Source: a virus
IMG/VR virus record: IMGVR_UViG_3300042862_000198
Span: 1-64,000 of that record
Strand: one strand, 5' to 3'
Length of the DNA stretch: 64,000 nucleotides
Position numbers and translations under genes: made by a program. The first letter of the stretch is position 1, and every line of letters starts with the position of its first letter. The notes beneath the pieces were generated by a model that saw only the letters and a program-made list of their open reading frames with translations, was not told where the DNA came from and searched no databases. This document shows positions 10,307-37,680 of this stretch, one piece after another.

Positions 10307-10555
10307 TTATTCTGATTTAAAGGTTTCGTTGTAGTATTGTTCAGCATCTAATTTACACTCTATTCCATCAGGCACATTTGATTTCCAACATTCTACAAAT
10401 GCATCTTTCATCTGCTCCTTTTCCATTTCTTTGGCTTGATTAAGTATTAAATCTAAATAATATTTATACTCAGATATTTCAATTTCATTTATTTCTAATT
10501 GATTAAATAGATGTGCTTGTTGTTCTTCCAACCATTCTACTGCTGTTTGTTTCAT
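10307..10555 (-). CDS. TAVEWL-family small protein, copy A, 82 aa
   Basis: One of five intact paralogs in this window. All share an N-terminal (K)QTAVEWL helix, a middle helix AKEMEKEQ, and usually the C-terminal tail YYNETFKSE. Here the middle holds extra helical residues (HLFNQLEINEIEISEYKYYL). The start is MKQTAVEWL at 10555; longer in-frame starts would only read through the tail of the upstream copy. The family occurs in many Bacteroidota phages and prophages, function unknown to me. Confidence 0.8.
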   Translation of the reverse strand: MKQTAVEWLEEQQAHLFNQLEINEIEISEYKYYLDLILNQAKEMEKEQMKDAFVECWKSNVPDGIECKLDAEQYYNETFKSE

Positions 10556-10556
10556 C

Positions 10557-10778
10557 TTATTCTGATTTAAAGGTTTCATTGTAGTATTGCTCAGGATTAT
10601 ATAAATCTCCCTTACCACCTCCTATAACATAGCCAAATGTGTGTGCTTCAGTAATCTGCTCCTTCTCCATTTCTTTGGCTTGTTCAATCAATTCAGAAGT
10701 TATAACTCCATTAAAGATAAAATCTCCTTTGACATGAGCTCCTCTTAATTCTTCTATCAACCATTCTACTGCTGTCAT
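10557..10778 (-). CDS. TAVEWL-family small protein, copy B, 73 aa
   Basis: Begins MTAVEWLIEELRG, lacking the usual Lys-Gln after Met. Contains QAKEMEKEQITEAHTFG and ends YYNETFKSE. It is separated from copy A by one base and from copy C by one base, each junction carrying the same sequence around TTTAAATCAGAATAAGATG. Tandem duplication is the simplest origin. Confidence 0.8.
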   Translation of the reverse strand: MTAVEWLIEELRGAHVKGDFIFNGVITSELIEQAKEMEKEQITEAHTFGYVIGGGKGDLYNPEQYYNETFKSE

Positions 10779-10779
10779 C

Positions 10780-10977
10780 TTATTCTGATTTAAAGGTTTC
10801 GTTGTAGTATCTATCACCATCTCCATCACAATGTGGCTCACCATTAAAAGCATCCATTATCTGCTCCTTCTCCATTTCTAATGCTTTATCCCAACAATCA
10901 CTGTTGTAATTAAATTCTTCTTCACTATATGGTTCTGAGTTTAAGTTTTCTAATAACCATTCTACTGCTGTTTTCAT
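10780..10977 (-). CDS. TAVEWL-family small protein, copy C, 65 aa
   Basis: Begins MKTAVEWLLENLNS, contains ALEMEKEQIMDAFNGE and ends YYNETFKSE. It is the first of the three tandem copies in transcription order. A poly-T/A leader lies upstream. The middle, between the conserved blocks, is specific to this copy (DGDGDRYYNET). Confidence 0.8.
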   Translation of the reverse strand: MKTAVEWLLENLNSEPYSEEEFNYNSDCWDKALEMEKEQIMDAFNGEPHCDGDGDRYYNETFKSE

Positions 10978-11040
10978 ATTTTTTTTTAAATTAAACTGTC
11001 CCAAATATTAGCTAAATTTGGGACAAATGGGTGTAAATAG

Positions 11041-13336: not shown

Positions 13337-13792
13337 TTAACAGCAGCTTGTCCCAGGTGTACAACAAGATTTTACTTTTTCCTTATTTATTTCTAAGGTA
13401 GGAATACCACATTTATCTAAAGCAAGGCAAGCTGTATTTGTACTAATTAATTGAAAGATACCATTAGTAAATACAACTCCATACTTTTCAATAGTTTCTC
13501 CTTGATATTCCATTTCAATTTCATAATTTCCAATTTCTAATTTTTTTTCAGAAAGTTCAATAATTGAATTGAGTTTACTTGGTTCTAATCTATGCAAAAA
13601 ATCTATACTTTGCCAAAGTTGCATAGAAATAACTTCTACATTTCTAATAGTTCCTCCACAGTCAATAAATTTTTTACTGATTTGTCCCACTTCTGTAATG
13701 TGAAAATGTTCTGGAATCTTATTTCCGTTTGGTTTTAAAAAGGTTACTTCTGAAACTACTTTTAAAGATTGTTTAAATTCTGATAATATCAT
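13337..13792 (-). CDS. DUF6428 family protein, 151 aa
   Basis: The N-terminus (MILSEFKQSLK, then FLKPNGNKIPEHFHITEVG and FIDCGGTIR) is diagnostic of DUF6428, a family found on bacterial chromosomes, often near ars-type genes. The C-terminus ends SCCTPGTSCC, two cysteine pairs that could bind a soft metal or arsenite. Length matches the cellular family, so the gene looks intact. Its presence in a phage suggests acquisition from a host. Function is not established. Confidence 0.8.
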   Translation of the reverse strand: MILSEFKQSLKVVSEVTFLKPNGNKIPEHFHITEVGQISKKFIDCGGTIRNVEVISMQLWQSIDFLHRLEPSKLNSIIELSEKKLEIGNYEIEMEYQGETIEKYGVVFTNGIFQLISTNTACLALDKCGIPTLEINKEKVKSCCTPGTSCC

Positions 13793-13806: not shown

Positions 13807-14088
13807 TTAGATTAATTCAAGACATGCTTCTTCAATATTTACTTCTTCTTTTGTTTCTTCTTTCATATTAGATAAAAGTTCAATTGGTAAAAATCTTGAT
13901 GCATCATAAAGTTCATAAGGAAATGATCTGCTTGATAGTTGTACTTCTTTAAGTAAAAAACCATAAGTTTCTTTTTGTAAACCCATTCTAACAATTCTGG
14001 TTACAGTATAAGTATCACCTTCTTTTACCCATTCTTCAATAGGTACATTTTTTGGCTTTTTATCAGCATCAATACAAATCACTTTCAT
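13807..14088 (-). CDS. Conserved small hypothetical protein, 93 aa
   Basis: Begins MKVICIDADKKPKNVP and has EGDTYTVTRIVRM, a small beta-barrel-like layout, then RFLPIELLSNM and an acidic tail. I have seen this N-terminal pattern in small Bacteroidota phage proteins of unknown function. It overlaps the ClpS-like gene by 20 bases, so the two are co-expressed. Confidence 0.75.
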   Translation of the reverse strand: MKVICIDADKKPKNVPIEEWVKEGDTYTVTRIVRMGLQKETYGFLLKEVQLSSRSFPYELYDASRFLPIELLSNMKEETKEEVNIEEACLELI

Positions 14089-14323
14089 ATTCTTCTAATT
14101 CAACTTTAATATTTAAGTTATCAAAGGTAGTTTTTAATTCAAACATATCCATAAAATCTCCATGTTTTATTTCACACTTGCCTTTGTTATGTGCTATTAG
14201 AGCACACTGTTCTGCCTGTACTACTTCATGTTTACATAGACCTATTAAACAGGCCATAATATATTCATGTGAGTTTACATTATCATTATATAACATAATC
14301 TTATGTGTTTGTATATCTTCCAT
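14069..14323 (-). CDS. clpS-like: ClpS-like adaptor protein, 84 aa
   Basis: Host ClpS binds ClpA/ClpC and delivers substrates carrying N-degrons to the ClpP protease. This protein has the family pattern: a strand then LYNDNVNSHEYIMACLIG at residues 11-28, AEQCALIAHNKGKC at 37-50, a FDNL helix, and a final strand IKVELEEY. The NDN at 13-15 replaces the usual NDD of the recognition pocket, and His45 corresponds to the conserved His in the ALIxH motif. The wording is closest to Bacteroidota ClpS. The gene overlaps its downstream neighbour and is 18 bases from the helicase gene. It could redirect host proteolysis (inference). Confidence 0.85.
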   Translation of the reverse strand: MEDIQTHKIMLYNDNVNSHEYIMACLIGLCKHEVVQAEQCALIAHNKGKCEIKHGDFMDMFELKTTFDNLNIKVELEEYESDLY

Positions 14324-14341
14324 ACTTTTAATATATACAAA

Positions 14342-15433
14342 TTATACGGAAATATTATAATTTTTCCATACAATTTTAGTTTGATCAAAATCTTCTAAGG
14401 CTTCTTTAACCCATTTTTCATCTACAGTATTCATATAACATAGTATATGTACAATAGCTTTATCATCAGGATTTAACCGGAGTAACCTACCTATTCTTTG
14501 ACTAGCTTTTCTTTCATTACCATATGAATGCATAATAATACCTTGTTTAAGATTAGATATATTTACACCTTCATTTAACTGCATAACAGTAGAAAGTTTT
14601 AAAATAGACCCTTCTTTAAACATTTCAAGATTTTCTTCAGATTTAGGATTATTACTATGATAACTATGAGAACATAATCTATCAGCTTGATCTTGTGTAT
14701 TAGCAAATACAATACACTTAGTATTAATGCTATCCATTAACTTTTTAGTATATTTTTCTTTACTTCCATACTCCATCATTGCTTTCATTCTCATTACTCT
14801 AAGAATATGGACAGGTCCAGAACCAGTTTCAAGTCTTTGACCCCAATAATTATAGTTTTGTACTTCAGAACTCATAAAACTTTTATTCTTCATTACTACA
14901 GAATAATTTTTTTCATTACTAAGTTCTAACTCATGTACTATAATTTGGTAATCATTTAGTATTCCTTGTTCTATAGCAGAGTCTGCTTTAAAAGTATATA
15001 TTACAGGACAAAATTCCTGTATTAATCTACCTTTTTCAGAATCTTTATATCTTGGAGGAGTACCAGTAAGACCAATTATCTTTCCTTTATATAGTTGTAG
15101 AAATCCTCTATGACTATCTAATAAACTATGAGCTTCATCTAAATACACTGCATCATAATCAGCAGGATTATGTTTATTTAAACTTAGATAAGTTGTAAAT
15201 GTAATCCTACTTAATTGTTCAAGCATATCAAACTTTGTTGCATCATCTTTCCAAGATTGAAAAATAGATTTTTTAGGAGCAACTACTAATGTCCTCATAA
15301 GAGGTGTAGTATAAAGTTGCATATGTTTTAGGCCAACAAGGGTCTTACCTACACCAGTTCCAAGCACAATGCTACATCTTTGTTTACCTTCAGTAGCTTT
15401 TAATGCTTCTACTTGTATTTCTTCTCTATTCAT
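14342..15433 (-). CDS. SF2 DEAH-box helicase (UvsW/SNF2-like)
   Basis: A 363-residue two-domain helicase. Motif I LGTGVGKT is at residues 24-31, motif II LDEAH at 98-102, motif III GLTGTPP near 121, and motif VI QRIGRLLR near 325. This is a compact SF2 enzyme of the type used by phages for branch migration, recombination-dependent replication or fork restart. The DEAH form and motif VI favour the UvsW/RadD-like group. Its stop side adjoins the ClpS-like gene, and it is coupled to the 73-aa gene upstream by a 4-base overlap. Confidence 0.88.
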   Translation of the reverse strand: MNREEIQVEALKATEGKQRCSIVLGTGVGKTLVGLKHMQLYTTPLMRTLVVAPKKSIFQSWKDDATKFDMLEQLSRITFTTYLSLNKHNPADYDAVYLDEAHSLLDSHRGFLQLYKGKIIGLTGTPPRYKDSEKGRLIQEFCPVIYTFKADSAIEQGILNDYQIIVHELELSNEKNYSVVMKNKSFMSSEVQNYNYWGQRLETGSGPVHILRVMRMKAMMEYGSKEKYTKKLMDSINTKCIVFANTQDQADRLCSHSYHSNNPKSEENLEMFKEGSILKLSTVMQLNEGVNISNLKQGIIMHSYGNERKASQRIGRLLRLNPDDKAIVHILCYMNTVDEKWVKEALEDFDQTKIVWKNYNISV

Positions 15434-16951: not shown

Positions 16952-17146
16952 TTATTCTGATTTAAAGATTTCATTGTAGTATTGTTCAGGTTTAAATTGT
17001 TTTTCTGCCATATCATAACTACCCATTATATAGGCATCGGTTATCTGCTCCTTCTCCATTTCTTTGGCTATTTCTGCCATACTAATAGAAATACCACCAA
17101 CTTTCTTGTACTGTTCAACCAACCATTCTACTGCTGTTTGTTTCAT
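16952..17146 (-). CDS. TAVEWL-family small protein, copy D, 64 aa
   Basis: Begins MKQTAVEWLVEQYKK, contains IAKEMEKEQITDAYIMGS, and ends EQYYNEIFKSE. One base separates it from the zincin gene, with the same junction repeat as the 10.3-11.0 kb tandem copies. Confidence 0.8.
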   Translation of the reverse strand: MKQTAVEWLVEQYKKVGGISISMAEIAKEMEKEQITDAYIMGSYDMAEKQFKPEQYYNEIFKSE

Positions 17147-17151
17147 ATCCT

Positions 17152-17319
17152 TTATTTTAAAATTTCTTTTAATTTTTCAGTTAATATAACAATTGCTCTA
17201 CATTCACCCCCCGGGAATGTGTGATTGAATTTAATTTCCTTAGCATATGCTGCAATCTTATCAATAACCTCTGCCGTTGTAGTCTCTGGCATGTCATATG
17301 TGGTTAATTCCTCTTCCAT
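17152..17319 (-). CDS. Hypothetical protein, 55 aa
   Basis: Starts MEEELTTYDMPETTTAEVID; the longer frame upstream is poly-Lys from A-rich leader sequence and is not used. The helix EVIDKIAAYAKEIKF is followed by FPGGECRAIVILTEKLKEIL. A small helix-strand-helix protein, not recognised. A GC-rich run (CCCCCCGGG) lies within. Confidence 0.55.
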   Translation of the reverse strand: MEEELTTYDMPETTTAEVIDKIAAYAKEIKFNHTFPGGECRAIVILTEKLKEILK

Positions 17320-17371
17320 AACTTTTTTCTTTTTTTTAATTAATAATTTATTTATCCTTTTTCTTATACTT

Positions 17372-17422
17372 TTATGATATATCAAGTTCTTTTCCTAACC
17401 ATTCTACTGCTGTTTGTTTCAT
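17372..17422 (-). pseudogene. Truncated TAVEWL-family copy
   Basis: An ATG at 17422 opens MKQTAVEWLGKELDIS and stops after 16 codons. Only the N-terminal block of the family remains; the middle helix and tail are gone. Confidence 0.65.
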
Positions 17423-17616
17423 TGTTCTTGTTGTTTAATATGTTCAAATACAATTTCTTTATTCTCAACTCTTACACAACACCCATCATAGATTAATTTT
17501 CCACTTTCTTTATGTGTATAAAAAAAGTATTCTGATTCTTCTGAATCTTTAATTACATAGCCATTATTATCTGTTGGTGTAATTTTAATTGGTAATTTTA
17601 AATTTAATTGTTCCAT
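17419..17616 (-). CDS. Hypothetical protein, 65 aa
   Basis: Begins MEQLNLKLPIKITPTDNNGY. A beta-rich domain with EYFFYTHKESGKLIYDG and CCVRVENKE, ending in a short Gln-rich helix. It overlaps the truncated TAVEWL remnant by 4 bases. Not recognised; shape is like small phage proteins of the beta-sandwich kind. Confidence 0.65.
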   Translation of the reverse strand: MEQLNLKLPIKITPTDNNGYVIKDSEESEYFFYTHKESGKLIYDGCCVRVENKEIVFEHIKQQEQ

Positions 17617-17628
17617 TTTTATTTGTTT

Positions 17629-17676
17629 TTAAGTTATACTTTTTCTTTTAACCATTCTACTGGTTGTTTGTTTCAT
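17629..17676 (-). pseudogene. Frameshifted TAVEWL-family remnant
   Basis: The DNA from 17676 reads like the 5' end of the family, but one base is inserted after the fourth codon (ACAACCAG in place of ACAGCAG). The frame becomes MKQTTSRMVKRKSIT and stops at 17629. In the correct frame the DNA still encodes VEWLKEK. Confidence 0.6.
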
Positions 17677-17680
17677 AATC

Positions 17681-17941
17681 TTATTTCTTTTTATATTGTT
17701 CAAACATTCTAATTGTAAAGTCTTTTATTCTCATATATGGAATTTTAACTTTATCATTTATAGTTCTTTGAATTAACATTCCTTCTTCACAAGAAAGTTT
17801 AATTATTTCTATTACTTCTTCCTCACTATAACCTTGTTGTTGCTTCTCCATTTCTTTGGCTTTGTATTCTATTGCCATTGGAATAACTGTTCCATTAATA
17901 TTTAATTGCTCTATTAACCATTCTACTGCTGTTTGTTTCAT
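17681..17941 (-). CDS. TAVEWL-family protein, copy E, 86 aa
   Basis: Begins MKQTAVEWLIEQLNINGT, then YKAKEMEKQQ, followed by a different C-terminal half (YSEEEVIEIIKLSCEEGMLIQRTIND...RMFEQYKKK) and no YYNETFKSE tail. This is a divergent or recombinant member, with a new tail joined to the common head. The upstream junction has CAACAAGAACAATG, shared with 17422. Confidence 0.75.
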   Translation of the reverse strand: MKQTAVEWLIEQLNINGTVIPMAIEYKAKEMEKQQQGYSEEEVIEIIKLSCEEGMLIQRTINDKVKIPYMRIKDFTIRMFEQYKKK

Positions 17942-26029: not shown

Positions 26030-26737
26030 ATGATTTATAAAAATAGAATTATTTGTAATAGTATAGATAATTATACTTATTTGTGTTATGAAAATGATAC
26101 AATTTCAAATAGTTTATTTAATTATGGATATTGGGAAAATGAGTTAATAAAATATGCAGAAACATTTTTAAATGACAATTCTATAATTTTAGATATTGGT
26201 GCAAATATCGGAACTTGGTCAATACCTTTAGCTATAAAAAATAGAAAAGTTTATTCATTTGAACCATACGATTCTTCTTTTTATTCATTATGTGGAAATA
26301 TATTTTTAAATAATAAAGAGCATATTATTTATCCGTATCATTCAGCACTTGTTGATAATGTAAATAAAAAAACAACAATGTATTTATCAGAAACAATAAA
26401 CATAGGTGGTTGTAAACTAATTGAAACAAATGATAATAACAATAAATTAAATAGATATAAATTGATTACTTTAGATTCATTAAAATTAAAAAAAGTAAAC
26501 TTTATAAAAATTGATGTAGAGGGTCAAGAATTAAATGTAATAAAAGGTGGTACTAAAACTATTCTAAAAAATAAACCAGTAATTTTTTTTGAATGTTGGG
26601 ACATAAATAGTGAGCATTGGAATAATATACCAAACACACACAATCAATTAATGGAGTATATAAAATCTTTAGGATATACTATAAATAAAATAAACATTGA
26701 TGGAAATGATAATTATGAAGCAATACCAATAAATTAA
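26030..26737 (+). CDS. FkbM-family methyltransferase, 235 aa
   Basis: SAM-dependent methyltransferase of the FkbM type, usually an O-methyltransferase acting on sugars. The SAM site is LDIGANIGTWSIPLA near residues 53-67, then VYSFEPYDSSF with the acidic ribose-binding Glu, and LKKVNFIKIDVEGQELNVIKGG further on, the family's KIDVEGxExxVLxG motif. The N-terminal 45 residues are variable. In a tail-gene region it may modify host surface glycans or glycans on the virion (inference). Confidence 0.85.
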   Translation: MIYKNRIICNSIDNYTYLCYENDTISNSLFNYGYWENELIKYAETFLNDNSIILDIGANIGTWSIPLAIKNRKVYSFEPYDSSFYSLCGNIFLNNKEHIIYPYHSALVDNVNKKTTMYLSETINIGGCKLIETNDNNNKLNRYKLITLDSLKLKKVNFIKIDVEGQELNVIKGGTKTILKNKPVIFFECWDINSEHWNNIPNTHNQLMEYIKSLGYTINKINIDGNDNYEAIPIN

Positions 26738-28198: not shown

Positions 28199-31100
28199 AT
28201 GGACAATAATCAACCCAATCAAAATTTTTTTTGTAATGATGGGTTAACTACACCTATTTCATGTGAACCTCAATTTACATGTCCTGATCCTGAACAATGT
28301 TCAGAAGTATATGATGCAGATTGTGTTATATATTTTGGAGAAAATATTATTTGCCAAGGAACTACAATAATAACTCAGTATACTTCAGTAGCACAAGGTT
28401 TAAATGAAATAGTTAATTGGCTTTGTAATGAAGGAAATATAGGTGTCCAAGGTATTCAAGGAGTCCAAGGAGTCCAAGGTATTTCAGGTGCATTTGCAGG
28501 ACAAGGTGTACAAGGAACCACTGGTATACAAGGTAATGTAGGTATTCAGGGAATCCAAGGAATACAAGGCATTCAAGGTATTCAAGGTTTTAATGGTCCA
28601 CAAGGAATTCAAGGTTTTGTTGGAACAGGTGTTCAAGGTTATCAAGGTCCTCCTGGTATTCAAGGCCCTACAGGAGTACAAGGATTTGTTGGAATAGGCA
28701 TCCAAGGATATCAAGGTGCTCAAGGTAGTCAAGGTTTACAAGGATTTACTGGTGGAGTTGGTATTCAAGGAGTACAAGGATCTACTGGAATAGGAGTTCA
28801 AGGTACACAAGGTATACAAGGACAAATTGGTATAAATGGTGTACAAGGAAATACAGGTATTCAAGGAAATACAGGTATTCAAGGAAATACAGGTAATGCA
28901 GGTTCTCAAGGTGCAGCCGGAAGTAATGGTAGTCAAGGTAGCACTGGAAGTCAAGGCAATATAGGTTCTCAAGGTGCTGTTGGAAATATAGGATCTCAAG
29001 GATCTATTGGTACAACTGGTGCTACAGGTAGTCAAGGTAGTCAAGGTTTTACTGGTACTACTGGTACACAAGGAACTACAGGTACACAAGGTATACAGGG
29101 TTTTGTTGGTTCTCAAGGAACACAAGGTACAGTAGGTAATATTGGTTCACAAGGATCAACAGGAAGTATAGGTTCACAAGGAAGTATTGGTATACAAGGA
29201 TTTAAAGGAGATACTGGTAATCAAGGTACTACAGGTAATACTGGAATGCAAGGAGCAACAGGCACACAAGGAAATATTGGTGTTACTGGTAGTCAGGGAG
29301 CTCAAGGCATCCAAGGAACAACTGGTACACAAGGTTTAACAGGAACTCAAGGTTCTCAAGGAACACAAGGATTGTTAGGACTTCAAGGTGTTCAAGGTGT
29401 TCAAGGTGTTTCTGGTACAGGTGGTGTTGTAGCTAATTATGGATCATGGTATTCAACAGTAGATCAAACTGCTGCAGCAATCAATACAGAATACATAATG
29501 ACTGCTAATACAATTTCTTATGCTAATGGTGTAAGTCTTGTATCAGGAACCCGAGTAACATATTCAAGTGCTGGTACTTATGCTTTTAATTTTTCAGTTC
29601 AGTTACATTATACCGGAGGTGGAGGATCAGGTGATGTAATAGATATTTGGTTAAAAAAGAATGGAACTGTTGTTCCTGATTCAAATACAAAATATTTAGT
29701 ACCTTCTAATCTTGCTTTTAATGTATCATCATTAGATTTTCTATTTACAGTAGTAGCTGGAGATTATTATGAAATTGCATGGGCTACTAATAACATAAAT
29801 ATCAGATTAGAATATGATGCGGCATCAGCACCTCATCCAGCTGTTCCTTCTGTAATCATTAATACTTTCCAAGTAACTTATACTCAATTAGGACCACAAG
29901 GATCTCAAGGAATACAAGGTACTACAGGAACTCAAGGATCAATTGGAACACAAGGTACTCAGGGCATACAAGGTATACAAGGAACTACTGGTTTACAGGG
30001 TTCAACAGGACTTCAAGGTTCAGTTGGAACAACAGGTTCTCAGGGTTCTATAGGAACTATTGGTAGTCAAGGAGCCACAGGATCCCAAGGTACAACAGGT
30101 ACTACGGGAACAGCTGGTTCTCAAGGTAGCACAGGATCAATTGGAACCCAAGGAGCAATTGGTAGTCAAGGAATACAAGGATTTATTGGTAATACAGGTA
30201 CTACCGGAAGTCAAGGAACACAAGGTTTTATAGGATTAACTGGTGCACAAGGAGCAGTTGGTGCACAAGGTGCAACAGGTAGTGGAGCTCAAGGTGCAAC
30301 AGGAACCCAAGGTTCAACTGGATTAACAGGTAATCAAGGTACAACTGGAAATCAAGGTACTGTAGGTTCACAAGGTTCAGTAGGAGTACAAGGCACTCAA
30401 GGTTCTCAAGGTGCTTTAGGAAATGTTGGATCTCAAGGAACTGTTGGTGCCCAAGGATTAAATGGAACTACAGGATCCCAAGGAACAACAGGTTCTACTG
30501 GTTTACAAGGTATAATTGGAACACAAGGAACTCAAGGCACGAATGGTACAACTGGTTCACAAGGTGCTATCGGTACTCAAGGAACAACTGGAACTAATGG
30601 CTCACAAGGTACTAATGGTACTCAAGGTGCTATTGGTTCTCAAGGAACTATAGGTACAACTGGGGCTACGGGATCACAAGGAGCAACTGGAACACAAGGT
30701 AATATTGGTACTCAAGGTGCTACTGGAACTCAAGGTACTACTGGTACACAAGGTAATATTGGTACAAGTGGTAGTCAAGGTTCAACTGGTTCTATAGGTT
30801 CACAAGGAGCAGTGGGTGCACAAGGAACAACTGGTACTACAGGTAATGCAGGATCACAAGGTGCAATAGGCTCTCAGGGATCTATTGGAACTACCGGATC
30901 TACAGGAAGTCAAGGAAGTACTGGAGCAACTGGTTCTACAGGTAGCCAGGGTGCAGTTGGATCCCAGGGTACTCAAGGAGCTATTGGAACTCAAGGTAGC
31001 ATTGGAACACAAGGAACTATTGGAGCTCAGGGTGCCGTTGGATCTCAAGGTTCTGTTGGTACTCAGGGTGCACAAGGTGCACAAGGAATTTTAGGTACAA

Positions 31101-32659
31101 GTGGTAGTCAAGGTACAAGTGGTAGTCAAGGTACAAGTGGAAGTACTGGATTACAAGGAACAGTTGGATCACAAGGAACTACAGGAACAACCGGAACCCA
31201 AGGAACAATTGGTTCTCAGGGAGCTATTGGATCTACTGGAGCAACAGGGACTCAGGGAACAGTTGGTAGCCAAGGATTTATTGGATCCCAAGGAGCAACA
31301 GGAGCAACAGGAAGTCAGGGTTTTACTGGAACAACTGGTACTCAAGGTAGTATTGGTTCACAAGGTGCTACAGGAACAACTGGAGGAATAGGTAGTCAAG
31401 GAGCTATTGGCTCTCAAGGTACAATTGGGACTACTGGATCCCAAGGAACAACAGGATTTCAGGGAACCACAGGTACAACAGGAAATACTGGTTCTCAAGG
31501 AGCAATTGGTAGTCAGGGTACAATTGGATCTACTGGAAATCAAGGTACTACAGGTGGAATTGGAACACAAGGTGCTACAGGTACACAAGGTGCTAATGGT
31601 TCTATTGGAGCTCAAGGTAATACAGGTTCTCAAGGTACAAGTGGAATAAATGGCTCACAGGGAACCACTGGTAGTCAAGGTGCACAGGGAACATTAGGAG
31701 TTCAAGGTCTAACTGGTAGCCAAGGTTCTACTGGTACTACAGGTTTGACTGGAGCCCAGGGTACTCAGGGTATTATTGGCTTACAAGGAACTCAAGGAAT
31801 ACAGGGAATTATTGGTGCAGGTGGTTTACAAGGTACTGATGGTGCACAAGGTACTGATGGTATACAAGGTACAATTGGTAGTCAAGGTTCAACTGGTAGT
31901 GGTACACAAGGTATACAAGGAATCCAAGGTCTATTAGGACCTTCACCAACTGTACCTGGAAGTAATAATGAAGTTTTAACTTCAAATGGTGCTGGTGCAA
32001 TAGTTGCTGAATCTAATTTAACTTTTGATGGAAGTATACTAACAATAAATGATAGACTGTTAACTACAAGTTCTACTTACCCAAACATTGATACTCAAAA
32101 TGGTCAATTGATTACACCAAGTGGTACAACCATAGCATTTAGTTGGTTATCTGATTTTATAGCATATGGTAATTTATATTCTTTATGGTATAAAGATATA
32201 AACATACAAAGATTTTTTTCATTTAATAATGCCCTATCACCTACATTTTACTATGAGGGTGATGTCATTGAAGGAACCTATTATTCAGCACCAACCCTTT
32301 ATAGTTTGGTTTCTTTAAGAACTGATGGTACTTGGGAGATGGCTGACCAATCAACTGCCTCATCAACAAAAATGTTAGGGATATATGTTGAATCTGCTGG
32401 TTCTGGTACTATTAAAATTCTTTTAGAAGGGCATGTGCAGGTTGAAGATACAAATAATGGTTTAGCACCTTTTGTAACTGCATTAGACCACGGCCTTCCT
32501 ATCTACATTAAAGGTGCTACTACTACTGGTCTATTATCCACTACATTACCTACCAAAGATTATGTACGCATCTTGGGTTATGCTTATCATCAAAGCACAG
32601 ACACACCAACAATATGGATTATGAGATTTGATCCGGATAATACTTGGATTTTCGTATAA
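28199..32659 (+). CDS. Giant Gln-rich collagen-like fibre protein, 1486 aa
   Basis: The N-terminal 80 residues are Cys-containing and probably anchor the fibre. Residues 82-408 are Gly-x-y repeats, then 409-560 is a jelly-roll (C1q-like) domain (NYGSWYSTVDQTAAAINTE...), then 564-1248 is a second Gly-x-y tract of about 228 triplets, and 1250-1486 is a C-terminal globular tip (IYIKGATTTGLL...LGYAYHQS). The repeats rarely use Pro and nearly always have Gln or Thr at y (GSQGTTGTQG), so it is an atypical collagen that relies on Thr and Gln. Such fibres give phages an adhesive surface and are also used to bind host polysaccharide or mucus. Copy number of repeats is likely to vary by slippage. Confidence 0.9.
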   Translation: MDNNQPNQNFFCNDGLTTPISCEPQFTCPDPEQCSEVYDADCVIYFGENIICQGTTIITQYTSVAQGLNEIVNWLCNEGNIGVQGIQGVQGVQGISGAFAGQGVQGTTGIQGNVGIQGIQGIQGIQGIQGFNGPQGIQGFVGTGVQGYQGPPGIQGPTGVQGFVGIGIQGYQGAQGSQGLQGFTGGVGIQGVQGSTGIGVQGTQGIQGQIGINGVQGNTGIQGNTGIQGNTGNAGSQGAAGSNGSQGSTGSQGNIGSQGAVGNIGSQGSIGTTGATGSQGSQGFTGTTGTQGTTGTQGIQGFVGSQGTQGTVGNIGSQGSTGSIGSQGSIGIQGFKGDTGNQGTTGNTGMQGATGTQGNIGVTGSQGAQGIQGTTGTQGLTGTQGSQGTQGLLGLQGVQGVQGVSGTGGVVANYGSWYSTVDQTAAAINTEYIMTANTISYANGVSLVSGTRVTYSSAGTYAFNFSVQLHYTGGGGSGDVIDIWLKKNGTVVPDSNTKYLVPSNLAFNVSSLDFLFTVVAGDYYEIAWATNNINIRLEYDAASAPHPAVPSVIINTFQVTYTQLGPQGSQGIQGTTGTQGSIGTQGTQGIQGIQGTTGLQGSTGLQGSVGTTGSQGSIGTIGSQGATGSQGTTGTTGTAGSQGSTGSIGTQGAIGSQGIQGFIGNTGTTGSQGTQGFIGLTGAQGAVGAQGATGSGAQGATGTQGSTGLTGNQGTTGNQGTVGSQGSVGVQGTQGSQGALGNVGSQGTVGAQGLNGTTGSQGTTGSTGLQGIIGTQGTQGTNGTTGSQGAIGTQGTTGTNGSQGTNGTQGAIGSQGTIGTTGATGSQGATGTQGNIGTQGATGTQGTTGTQGNIGTSGSQGSTGSIGSQGAVGAQGTTGTTGNAGSQGAIGSQGSIGTTGSTGSQGSTGATGSTGSQGAVGSQGTQGAIGTQGSIGTQGTIGAQGAVGSQGSVGTQGAQGAQGILGTSGSQGTSGSQGTSGSTGLQGTVGSQGTTGTTGTQGTIGSQGAIGSTGATGTQGTVGSQGFIGSQGATGATGSQGFTGTTGTQGSIGSQGATGTTGGIGSQGAIGSQGTIGTTGSQGTTGFQGTTGTTGNTGSQGAIGSQGTIGSTGNQGTTGGIGTQGATGTQGANGSIGAQGNTGSQGTSGINGSQGTTGSQGAQGTLGVQGLTGSQGSTGTTGLTGAQGTQGIIGLQGTQGIQGIIGAGGLQGTDGAQGTDGIQGTIGSQGSTGSGTQGIQGIQGLLGPSPTVPGSNNEVLTSNGAGAIVAESNLTFDGSILTINDRLLTTSSTYPNIDTQNGQLITPSGTTIAFSWLSDFIAYGNLYSLWYKDINIQRFFSFNNALSPTFYYEGDVIEGTYYSAPTLYSLVSLRTDGTWEMADQSTASSTKMLGIYVESAGSGTIKILLEGHVQVEDTNNGLAPFVTALDHGLPIYIKGATTTGLLSTTLPTKDYVRILGYAYHQSTDTPTIWIMRFDPDNTWIFV

Positions 32660-35454: not shown

Positions 35455-37680
35455 ATGAATAATCTATGTCAACTTGCCCTTCAAAAAGGAGGTTCTTTAA
35501 ATTACTTAATGTTACCAGCTACTATAACAGAAGGGTTAGGTTTAACTAATCCTTCTATTTTTATACATAAGGGGCATTATTTTCTTAATCTTAGACATGT
35601 TAAATATGCATTATATCATAGTGAAGGAGAACAAAAATTTCAATCTTCATGGGGACCATTAGCATATCTTAACCCAGAAGATGATCTTACTCTTAAAACA
35701 ATTAATTATTTATGTGAATTAGATCCTAATACATTAGTTATTAATAAGTATCAAAAAATAGATACTTCTAAATTAGATGTTAAACCTATTTGGCAATTTA
35801 TTGGTCTTGAAGATGCAAGAGTAGTATATTGGGATAATAGTTTATTTATTACAGGAGTTAGAAGAGATACAACTACTAATGGAGAAGGTAGAATGGAACT
35901 TTCTACAATAGATAATAAAAATAAAGAAACTAAAAGAATTAGAATTGAACCACCTACAAAAGGTTCTTATTGTGAAAAAAACTGGATGCCTATTCTTGAT
36001 TTACCATATCATTATGTTAAATGGACTAATCCTACTGAAGTAGTTAAAGTAGATCCTATTAAAGGTATTTCTGAAACAGTTTTTTTAGTAGAACAAAAAA
36101 TAAAATTTCCAAGAGATATTAGAGGTGGTTCACAAGTTATTACAATTGGAAATTATTATGTTGCTGTAACACATGAAGTAGACCTTTGGTATAATGAACA
36201 AAAAAATAAAGATTCTCACTATTACCATAGATTTATTATATGGGATAAAAAATGGAATATTGTTGCTTATTCTTCTGAATTAAAATTTATGACAGGAGCA
36301 ATTGAATTTACTTGTGGTTTAGCTTTTGATGGTAATAATATTATATTACCATTTGGATTTCAAGATTCTACAGCTTTTATTCTTAAATTTCCTATTAATC
36401 TTTTAGAAACATTATGTAATTTAAAACTTGTAAAACCTAAAATAAAAAAATCATTAATATCGGTTACTCCAAAAAAATTAGAAAACTTTATTTATCAACC
36501 ATATAATGAAGATATTACATTTGAATTAGGAGAATATTATTTTTTAAATGGTCATTATGCATCTGCAATGTCTTTTTATTTAAGAACAGCAGAATACTCA
36601 AAAAATTCAAATAAAACATATGAAGCATTATTAATGACTGCTAAATGTTTATCTAATATTAAAAGAAGAGAAGTTACTGAATTAGGGTTATGGCTTAATG
36701 CACTTAACTTTGATACAGAAAGACCGGAAGCATATTTATTTATAAGTGTATATTATGAAAAACAAAAAAAATATAATCAAATGTATAGTTATGCTATATT
36801 AGGATTAAAATATTATGCAAATGCTAAACCAGTAACTTCTAATCTAGGATATGAAGGTAGCTATCAACTTAATTTTCAAAAAGCAGTTTCTGCTTGGTGG
36901 ATTGGTAAATCAAAAGAATCTAAAGATGAGTTTATTAAATTACTTAATAAAAGTACAGAATTAAGTGAAACATACCAAAAAATGGTACGATCTAATATTA
37001 CATTTTTAGATTCTGGACCATATCCTTTTTTAAGATATTACAAAGGATTTTATGATCAGTTAAGATATAAGTTCCCAGGATCAGAGTCTATTGAAAAAAA
37101 CTTTTCTCAAACATATCAAGATATGTTTGCATTATCTATGGTTAATGGTAAAAGAAATGGAACATACTTTGAAATTGGTGCAGCAGATCCATTTCATGGA
37201 AATAATACAGCTCTTTTAGAACAATTTGGATGGACAGGTACTTCATTAGAAATTTTACCACATGAAGTTGAAAAATTTAAATTACACAGAAAAAATGAGA
37301 TTATATTATGTGATGCTACAAAGTTTGATTACTCTATACTTAAAGGTCATATTGACTACTTACAAGTTGATTGTGAACCACCAGAAACTACTTATAAGAT
37401 ACTTACAATGTTACCTTGGGATCAATGTACTTTTGGAGTAATTACATATGAGCATGACTACTATACAGATGTAACACAATCATTTAGAAAAAAGTCTAGA
37501 GAATTTTTATTAAGTAAAGGTTATATGCTAATAGCAAGTAATATATCTCCAAATGATGATTGTCCTTATGAAGACTGGTGGGTACATCCAAAACATATAG
37601 ATAAAGATATAATTAAAAAAATGTTGGCAGATAATGATTCAACTAAAAATGCAGAAAAATATATGTTTGGAAAGTTGTAA
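35455..37680 (+). CDS. Propeller-TPR-FkbM methyltransferase fusion, 741 aa
   Basis: Three parts. Residues 1-320 resemble the five-bladed beta-propeller of GH130-type proteins (GLEDARVVYWDN, RRDTTTNGEGRMEL, ALYHSEGEQKF). Residues 345-500 are helical TPR-like repeats (YYFLNGHYASAMSFYLRTAEY...). Residues ~570-741 are an FkbM-type methyltransferase (GTYFEIGAADPFHGNN, HIDYLQVDCEPPETTYKI, with the family Glu/Asp pair). A glycan-recognising or glycan-cleaving propeller joined to a methyltransferase suggests modification of a surface polysaccharide. The catalytic acid of GH130 was not identified, so the propeller may only bind. Confidence 0.7.
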   Translation: MNNLCQLALQKGGSLNYLMLPATITEGLGLTNPSIFIHKGHYFLNLRHVKYALYHSEGEQKFQSSWGPLAYLNPEDDLTLKTINYLCELDPNTLVINKYQKIDTSKLDVKPIWQFIGLEDARVVYWDNSLFITGVRRDTTTNGEGRMELSTIDNKNKETKRIRIEPPTKGSYCEKNWMPILDLPYHYVKWTNPTEVVKVDPIKGISETVFLVEQKIKFPRDIRGGSQVITIGNYYVAVTHEVDLWYNEQKNKDSHYYHRFIIWDKKWNIVAYSSELKFMTGAIEFTCGLAFDGNNIILPFGFQDSTAFILKFPINLLETLCNLKLVKPKIKKSLISVTPKKLENFIYQPYNEDITFELGEYYFLNGHYASAMSFYLRTAEYSKNSNKTYEALLMTAKCLSNIKRREVTELGLWLNALNFDTERPEAYLFISVYYEKQKKYNQMYSYAILGLKYYANAKPVTSNLGYEGSYQLNFQKAVSAWWIGKSKESKDEFIKLLNKSTELSETYQKMVRSNITFLDSGPYPFLRYYKGFYDQLRYKFPGSESIEKNFSQTYQDMFALSMVNGKRNGTYFEIGAADPFHGNNTALLEQFGWTGTSLEILPHEVEKFKLHRKNEIILCDATKFDYSILKGHIDYLQVDCEPPETTYKILTMLPWDQCTFGVITYEHDYYTDVTQSFRKKSREFLLSKGYMLIASNISPNDDCPYEDWWVHPKHIDKDIIKKMLADNDSTKNAEKYMFGKL

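Follow-up and report, generated by a model that had tools for sequence, protein, structure and literature searches.

A phage-encoded ClpS protein, located in a 64,000-nucleotide stretch of DNA (the window, positions 1 to 64,000 of the 122,176-base IMG/VR virus record IMGVR_UViG_3300042862_000198), keeps the fold and most of the binding pocket of the bacterial N-degron adaptor and lacks the N-terminal extension (NTE) expected of a delivery-competent ClpS, and this core-only form is shared by a whole clade of viral relatives. Phage ClpS as such is already known and has so far been assumed to direct host proteolysis; as a matter of sequence and structure, the finding of a form without an NTE is solid. 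With regard to function, the reading we favour is that the core-only protein would compete with or sequester the host N-degron pathway rather than drive degradation, and we give it about an even chance of being correct.

The identity of the protein as ClpS, put forward in the original prediction, was confirmed by profile search, fold and residues. Comparison with the Pfam ClpS profile (PF02617) gave an E value of 1.6e-10 and 41 bits against a curated cut-off of 23, and a search of the whole record returned this open reading frame as its sole ClpS match. The N13-D14-N15 motif and the end of the helix (ALIAHNKGKC) were also as previously described, and so was the gene neighbourhood, with an SF2 helicase upstream on the same strand and a small conserved gene, here called p93, overlapping the clpS stop (Table 1). 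An AlphaFold2 model built from 61 aligned relatives (three rows from the phage record collection were left out of the alignment) reached a mean pLDDT of 93.1 and displayed the element order E-H-H-E-H-E of the ClpS fold. Searching the PDB with this model using Foldseek yielded 38 matches at E <= 0.001, all of them ClpS or ClpS-like and many peptide-bound, including the M. smegmatis, E. coli, Caulobacter and Arabidopsis proteins, with E values down to 3e-6. The closest cellular homologues are encoded on Bacteroidota chromosomes (33–53% identity over the matched part).

Judged from more than 160 homologous loci and from dN/dS values of about 0–0.2 in most pairs, the open reading frame is far above chance. 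Such low values were obtained for 13 of 14 measurable pairs, the exception being L052/L059 with 0.65, and indicate that the core-only protein is under purifying selection. A degenerate or non-functional gene remnant might be suspected from an N-terminus that is shortened relative to all hosts; this reading is extremely improbable and is refuted by the purifying selection, the more than 160 intact loci, the conserved start and context and the confident fold. Together with the profile match, these data also rule out a chance open reading frame.

Table 1 Features of the helicase-clpS-p93 block, in window coordinates
Feature	Position	Strand	Evidence or remark
SF2 helicase (ResIII/Helicase_C), 363 aa, first gene of the block	14342..15433	(-)	ResIII 51.8 bits, Helicase_C 31.6 bits
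Six codons and helicase stop codon in the clpS frame (FVYIKS-M, stop before)	14324..14344	(-)	Caps any N-terminal extension
clpS, ClpS core domain, 84 aa, MEDIQTHKIMLYNDNVNS...	14069..14323	(-)	Pfam ClpS match, Foldseek, NTE survey
Overlap of clpS 3' end and p93 5' end, 20 nt (...YESDLY stop / MKVICI)	14069..14088	(-)	Coordinates
p93, 93 aa	13807..14088	(-)	p93 in 83/83 viral ClpS loci with room downstream

E. coli ClpS from which most of the NTE has been removed is reported to bind without delivering, and the exact minimal length of the NTE is reportedly given in Hou 2008 and Roman-Hernandez 2011. In the intact E. coli protein, residues 1–25 constitute the disordered NTE, which is bound and pulled by the pore loops of ClpA, and blocking the NTE inhibits ClpS-assisted degradation by E. 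coli ClpAP (PMC9663308). Counting the residues before the Asn of the NDx pocket motif gave 12 for the window ClpS versus 33 for E. coli. Because the NTE is absent, the earlier statement that all ClpS landmarks are present is wrong. A hidden upstream start was ruled out, since the helicase stop codon lies in frame six codons upstream of the clpS ATG and a product longer than 84 aa is therefore impossible without readthrough.

The short N-terminus was consistent among 49 unique viral relatives, all of which have the conserved ATG, with 12 (47 relatives) or 13 (two relatives) residues ahead of the NDx motif. A real extension is barred in 22 of them by an in-frame stop no more than 22 codons before the motif. 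The other 27 have a longer frame that reaches back into the final part of the helicase gene, and the start that is conserved is in every case the near ATG. A search seeded with p93, and hence independent of ClpS, led to the same count: of 73 cases that could be measured, 71 have 12 residues ahead of NDx, one has 9 and one has 13. In contrast, typical starts lie 24–45 residues before NDx in 77 unique Bacteroidota chromosomal ClpS proteins, not one of which is limited to fewer than 24.

The remark in the original prediction that ClpS is unusual in phages did not hold, and rarity was dropped as a point of interest: many jumbo phages have an annotated ClpS (PA5oct, Atu_ph07, Phosso, GAP32 and Kaldavass, among others), and the protein was discussed in 2021 by Iyer et al., who proposed that phage ClpS brings targets to host ClpAP for destruction (PMC7824862). 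Unlike the window ClpS, most jumbo-phage ClpS proteins either have at least 25 residues ahead of the pocket motif or form part of a fusion with another domain (GAP32, Kaldavass). In those jumbo phages whose gene neighbourhood was examined, clpS lies next to genes for IF-3, a heat-shock protein or thymidine kinase and not in a helicase-p93 block. In Kaldavass and GAP32 (L241, L242), the ClpS-like part is C-terminal in a longer protein of 177 aa, whose gene adjoins a phage IF-3 gene. Other phage ClpS proteins surveyed also mostly have at least 25 residues before the motif, and three phages of 635–642 kb have 26–29. An unrelated jumbo-phage ClpS, that of Vibrio phage 2.275.O (L240, 1492–1848), has about 12 residues before the pocket motif and is possibly a second, independent loss of the NTE.

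In a tree calculated from 73 columns, the core-only proteins formed one clade with a support of 100/100, indicating a single origin of the clade-wide NTE loss. Related phages whose clpS occupies the same helicase locus (L121, L324, L358, L406, L408 and L409) retain 23–25 residues before the motif, so that the short form is most simply explained as a derived and maintained state; these phages thereby provide a natural test of the role of the NTE outside E. coli. Placing the core-only ClpS as sister of NTE-bearing phage ClpS gave an AU p of 0.64 on only 73 columns, and the short form could either stem from the helicase-locus ClpS of these phages or have been captured separately from a host. In the wider helicase family, clpS is usually absent from the helicase locus.

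The gene block itself is highly constant. The helicase, which matched the PHROG_16 DNA helicase family with an E value of 1.4e-43, precedes clpS in all 76 viral loci that have enough upstream sequence to hold it, and clpS was in turn present in all 79 loci recovered by the p93-seeded search. In comparison to the bacterial protein, the window ClpS has a short C-terminal tail (YESDLY) that overlaps the p93 gene, and the 20-nt overlap was found in 62 of 83 loci. Shared strand and overlap make co-transcription of clpS and p93 plausible. Less constant neighbours are a ParB-like gene (35 of 84 loci) and DUF6428 (2 of 84). In the window, a DUF6428 family protein (13337–13792, minus strand; Pfam, 181 bits) is encoded directly downstream of clpS-p93, and the only two copies among viral ClpS loci belong to one relative (L004/L013, same contig). 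In another related phage (L331, 3630–5264), a GroEL-type chaperonin (Cpn60, 263 bits) is found right after the same helicase, for which reason the helicase-adjacent spot may collect protein-quality-control genes.

In Caulobacter ClpS, the alpha-amino group of the substrate is held by Asn47, Asp49 and His79 (PMC12493166). The window ClpS shares the fold with the E. coli, Caulobacter and Bacteroidota proteins and keeps N13 and H45 of this pocket, with N15 replacing the Asp. This third pocket residue, to which the original prediction had drawn attention, is indeed Asn in the window and yet no special feature of the clade: among the 49 unique viral relatives, position 15 is Asp in 40 and Asn in 9, while position 13 is Asn throughout and position 45 is His in 40, Asp in 8 and Glu in 1. 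Near-identical relatives (L002–L004) and a 70% identical one (L005) carry Asp at position 15, and Asn also occurs in some chromosomal ClpS proteins (4 of 79 aligned). Being polymorphic in the clade and present in cellular proteins, Asn15 was discarded as the key novelty. The hydrophobic specificity pocket is present as well, with L11, Y12, I22, A41, A44 and I72 aligning to it in a composition near that of Bacteroidota ClpS, including the Bacteroidota-type Ala41, whereas the gatekeeper is His19 instead of Met (E. coli) or Phe (Bacteroidota).

At the interface with the unfoldase, the residues Glu79, Glu82 and Lys84, which contact the ClpA N-domain in E. coli, correspond to D56, D59 and F61. The Glu82 position is acidic in 44 of 49 relatives and the Lys84 position is mostly Phe or Leu and thus hydrophobic, a site that also varies among Bacteroidota hosts. 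Docking on the N-domain of ClpA or ClpC is uncertain because the Lys84 contact is Phe61 in the window ClpS. Leptospira ClpS1 has Val at this site, yet binds ClpA with a Kd of 0.44 µM; it also naturally carries Asn at the third pocket position, and ClpA is inhibited by it (PMC12493166). It hence shares the pocket Asn and the hydrophobic replacement of Lys84 with the window ClpS, as well as a Tyr gatekeeper (many members) and the His-to-Asp exchange (8 of 49) with members of the clade, but has a 22-residue N-terminal domain (NTE) that is missing from the window protein. The hydrophobic Lys84 position in most members, the loss of the His in 9 of 49 and the strict linkage to the SF2 helicase gene would also fit a ClpS core re-purposed outside Clp proteolysis, for example as a small chaperone for phage protein N-termini or as a helicase accessory. 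Retention of the N-degron-binding residues in most members and of an acidic Glu82 position argues against such a role, which we consider quite unlikely.

Because the pocket is mostly conserved, N-degron binding is likely, and the core-only ClpS, with its fold and most of the pocket kept, probably binds proteins with bulky N-terminal residues; counting against the favoured reading, some divergent members have lost the His of the pocket, which is replaced by Asp in 8 and by Glu in 1 of the 49. The protein may in addition dock on host ClpA/ClpC through the N-domain of this unfoldase, whose pore would then find no disordered NTE to grip, making the hand-over of substrate poor or nil. By analogy with the E. 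coli biochemistry, delivery as in E. coli should fail since the NTE is absent, and the most likely effect of its lack is inhibitory: during infection, phage ClpS would compete with host ClpS for the unfoldase and/or hold N-degron proteins undelivered, ClpS-dependent proteolysis would be damped, and proteins of the phage (or selected ones of the host) whose N-degrons are exposed would be spared. Neither the ClpA/ClpC N-domain (PF02861) nor ClpP (PF00574) was found in seven records of the clade, including that of the window, although these records are possibly incomplete; any effect of ClpS would therefore most likely be exerted on the host system. We infer docking on host ClpA/ClpC, an inhibitory role in vivo and a benefit to the phage from these considerations.

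An ordinary delivery adaptor, which hands selected N-degron proteins to the ClpAP/ClpCP of the host to be destroyed, would be in accordance with the largely kept pocket (N13 in all 49 relatives, His in 40), with the existence of full-NTE ClpS in jumbo and huge phages, and with the published proposal of ClpS-ClpAP destruction (PMC7824862). The absence of the NTE from 49 of 49 unique members and from the p93-seeded set speaks against it, given that the unfoldase pulls on the NTE in E. coli, and we regard delivery as unlikely, with the caveat that the NTE rule comes from E. coli ClpAP and that a ClpC-type partner in Bacteroidota might not need an NTE. Of the two outcomes that the original prediction had offered for a phage ClpS steering host ClpAP/ClpCP, removal of proteins is weakened by an NTE that is missing clade-wide and kept in sister phages and Bacteroidota hosts, and sparing of proteins fits better.

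The missing function could come from a partner, for example p93. The p93 model (pLDDT 82.9, with the tail below 50) predicts a globular domain followed by a disordered acidic tail. Its best fold match, an SH3 domain, was weak (E 0.17); the structure search gave no match with E under 0.001, profile searches of Pfam and PHROG found no known family, and no match was present among 50,697 annotated phage records. In p93 and its relatives, a variable acidic linker leads to a conserved C-terminal tip, (D/E)L(D/E)L(I/V), which looks like a short binding motif. In a split adaptor, p93 would bind the ClpS core, and the acidic disordered tail of p93, with its hydrophobic tip, would replace the NTE. Such an arrangement would account for the reciprocal occurrence of the two genes, for their mostly overlapping ends and for the tail itself, which is lacking in p93-like proteins beside an NTE-bearing ClpS (L121) or without ClpS. 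Against this, p93 matches no known family, and in two related phages (L394, L400) the helicase has a p93-like neighbour but no clpS, and we judge the split adaptor to be improbable. These two loci also weaken the view that p93 is strictly bound to ClpS, and they imply that p93 is older than the pairing and not simply a ClpS partner.

Phage proteins are known to act on host ATP-dependent proteases, as does T4 PinA on Lon. Further examples are lambda CIII, which acts on FtsH, and the adaptor-like protein Gp53 of phage SPO1, which modulates ClpCP (PMC6873191). All three are unrelated in sequence to the window ClpS, and none is an adaptor taken from the host that has lost the segment for delivery. 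In a more far-reaching reading, to which we assign slightly less than an even chance, ClpS is dedicated throughout the clade to antagonising the N-degron pathway of the host, as a decoy derived from a captured adaptor and possibly aided by p93. With the delivery segment lost throughout the clade and the binding core under purifying selection, a role opposite to directing proteolysis becomes testable, namely a viral block on the bacterial N-degron pathway; if true, this would suggest that phages of Bacteroidota can be countered by the N-degron pathway.

The terminase, portal and major head protein of the record matched phage packaging and head families, the terminase being 23–25% identical to those of crAss-like phages and of Flavobacterium phage FpV4, and we infer a Bacteroidota host. 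Elsewhere in the window, small paralogous ORFs on the minus strand (10307–11004 and 16952–17941) share the motifs AVEWL...EMEKEQ and YYNETFKSE, and some of them also share an upstream TTxKPLNQNKM stretch, constituting a local repeated small-gene family. On the plus strand, 28199–32659 encodes a 1486-aa collagen-like protein with GxQG repeats, probably a fibre, and inspection by eye pointed to two candidate FkbM-type methyltransferase or glycan-modifying proteins at 26030–26737 and 35455–37680.
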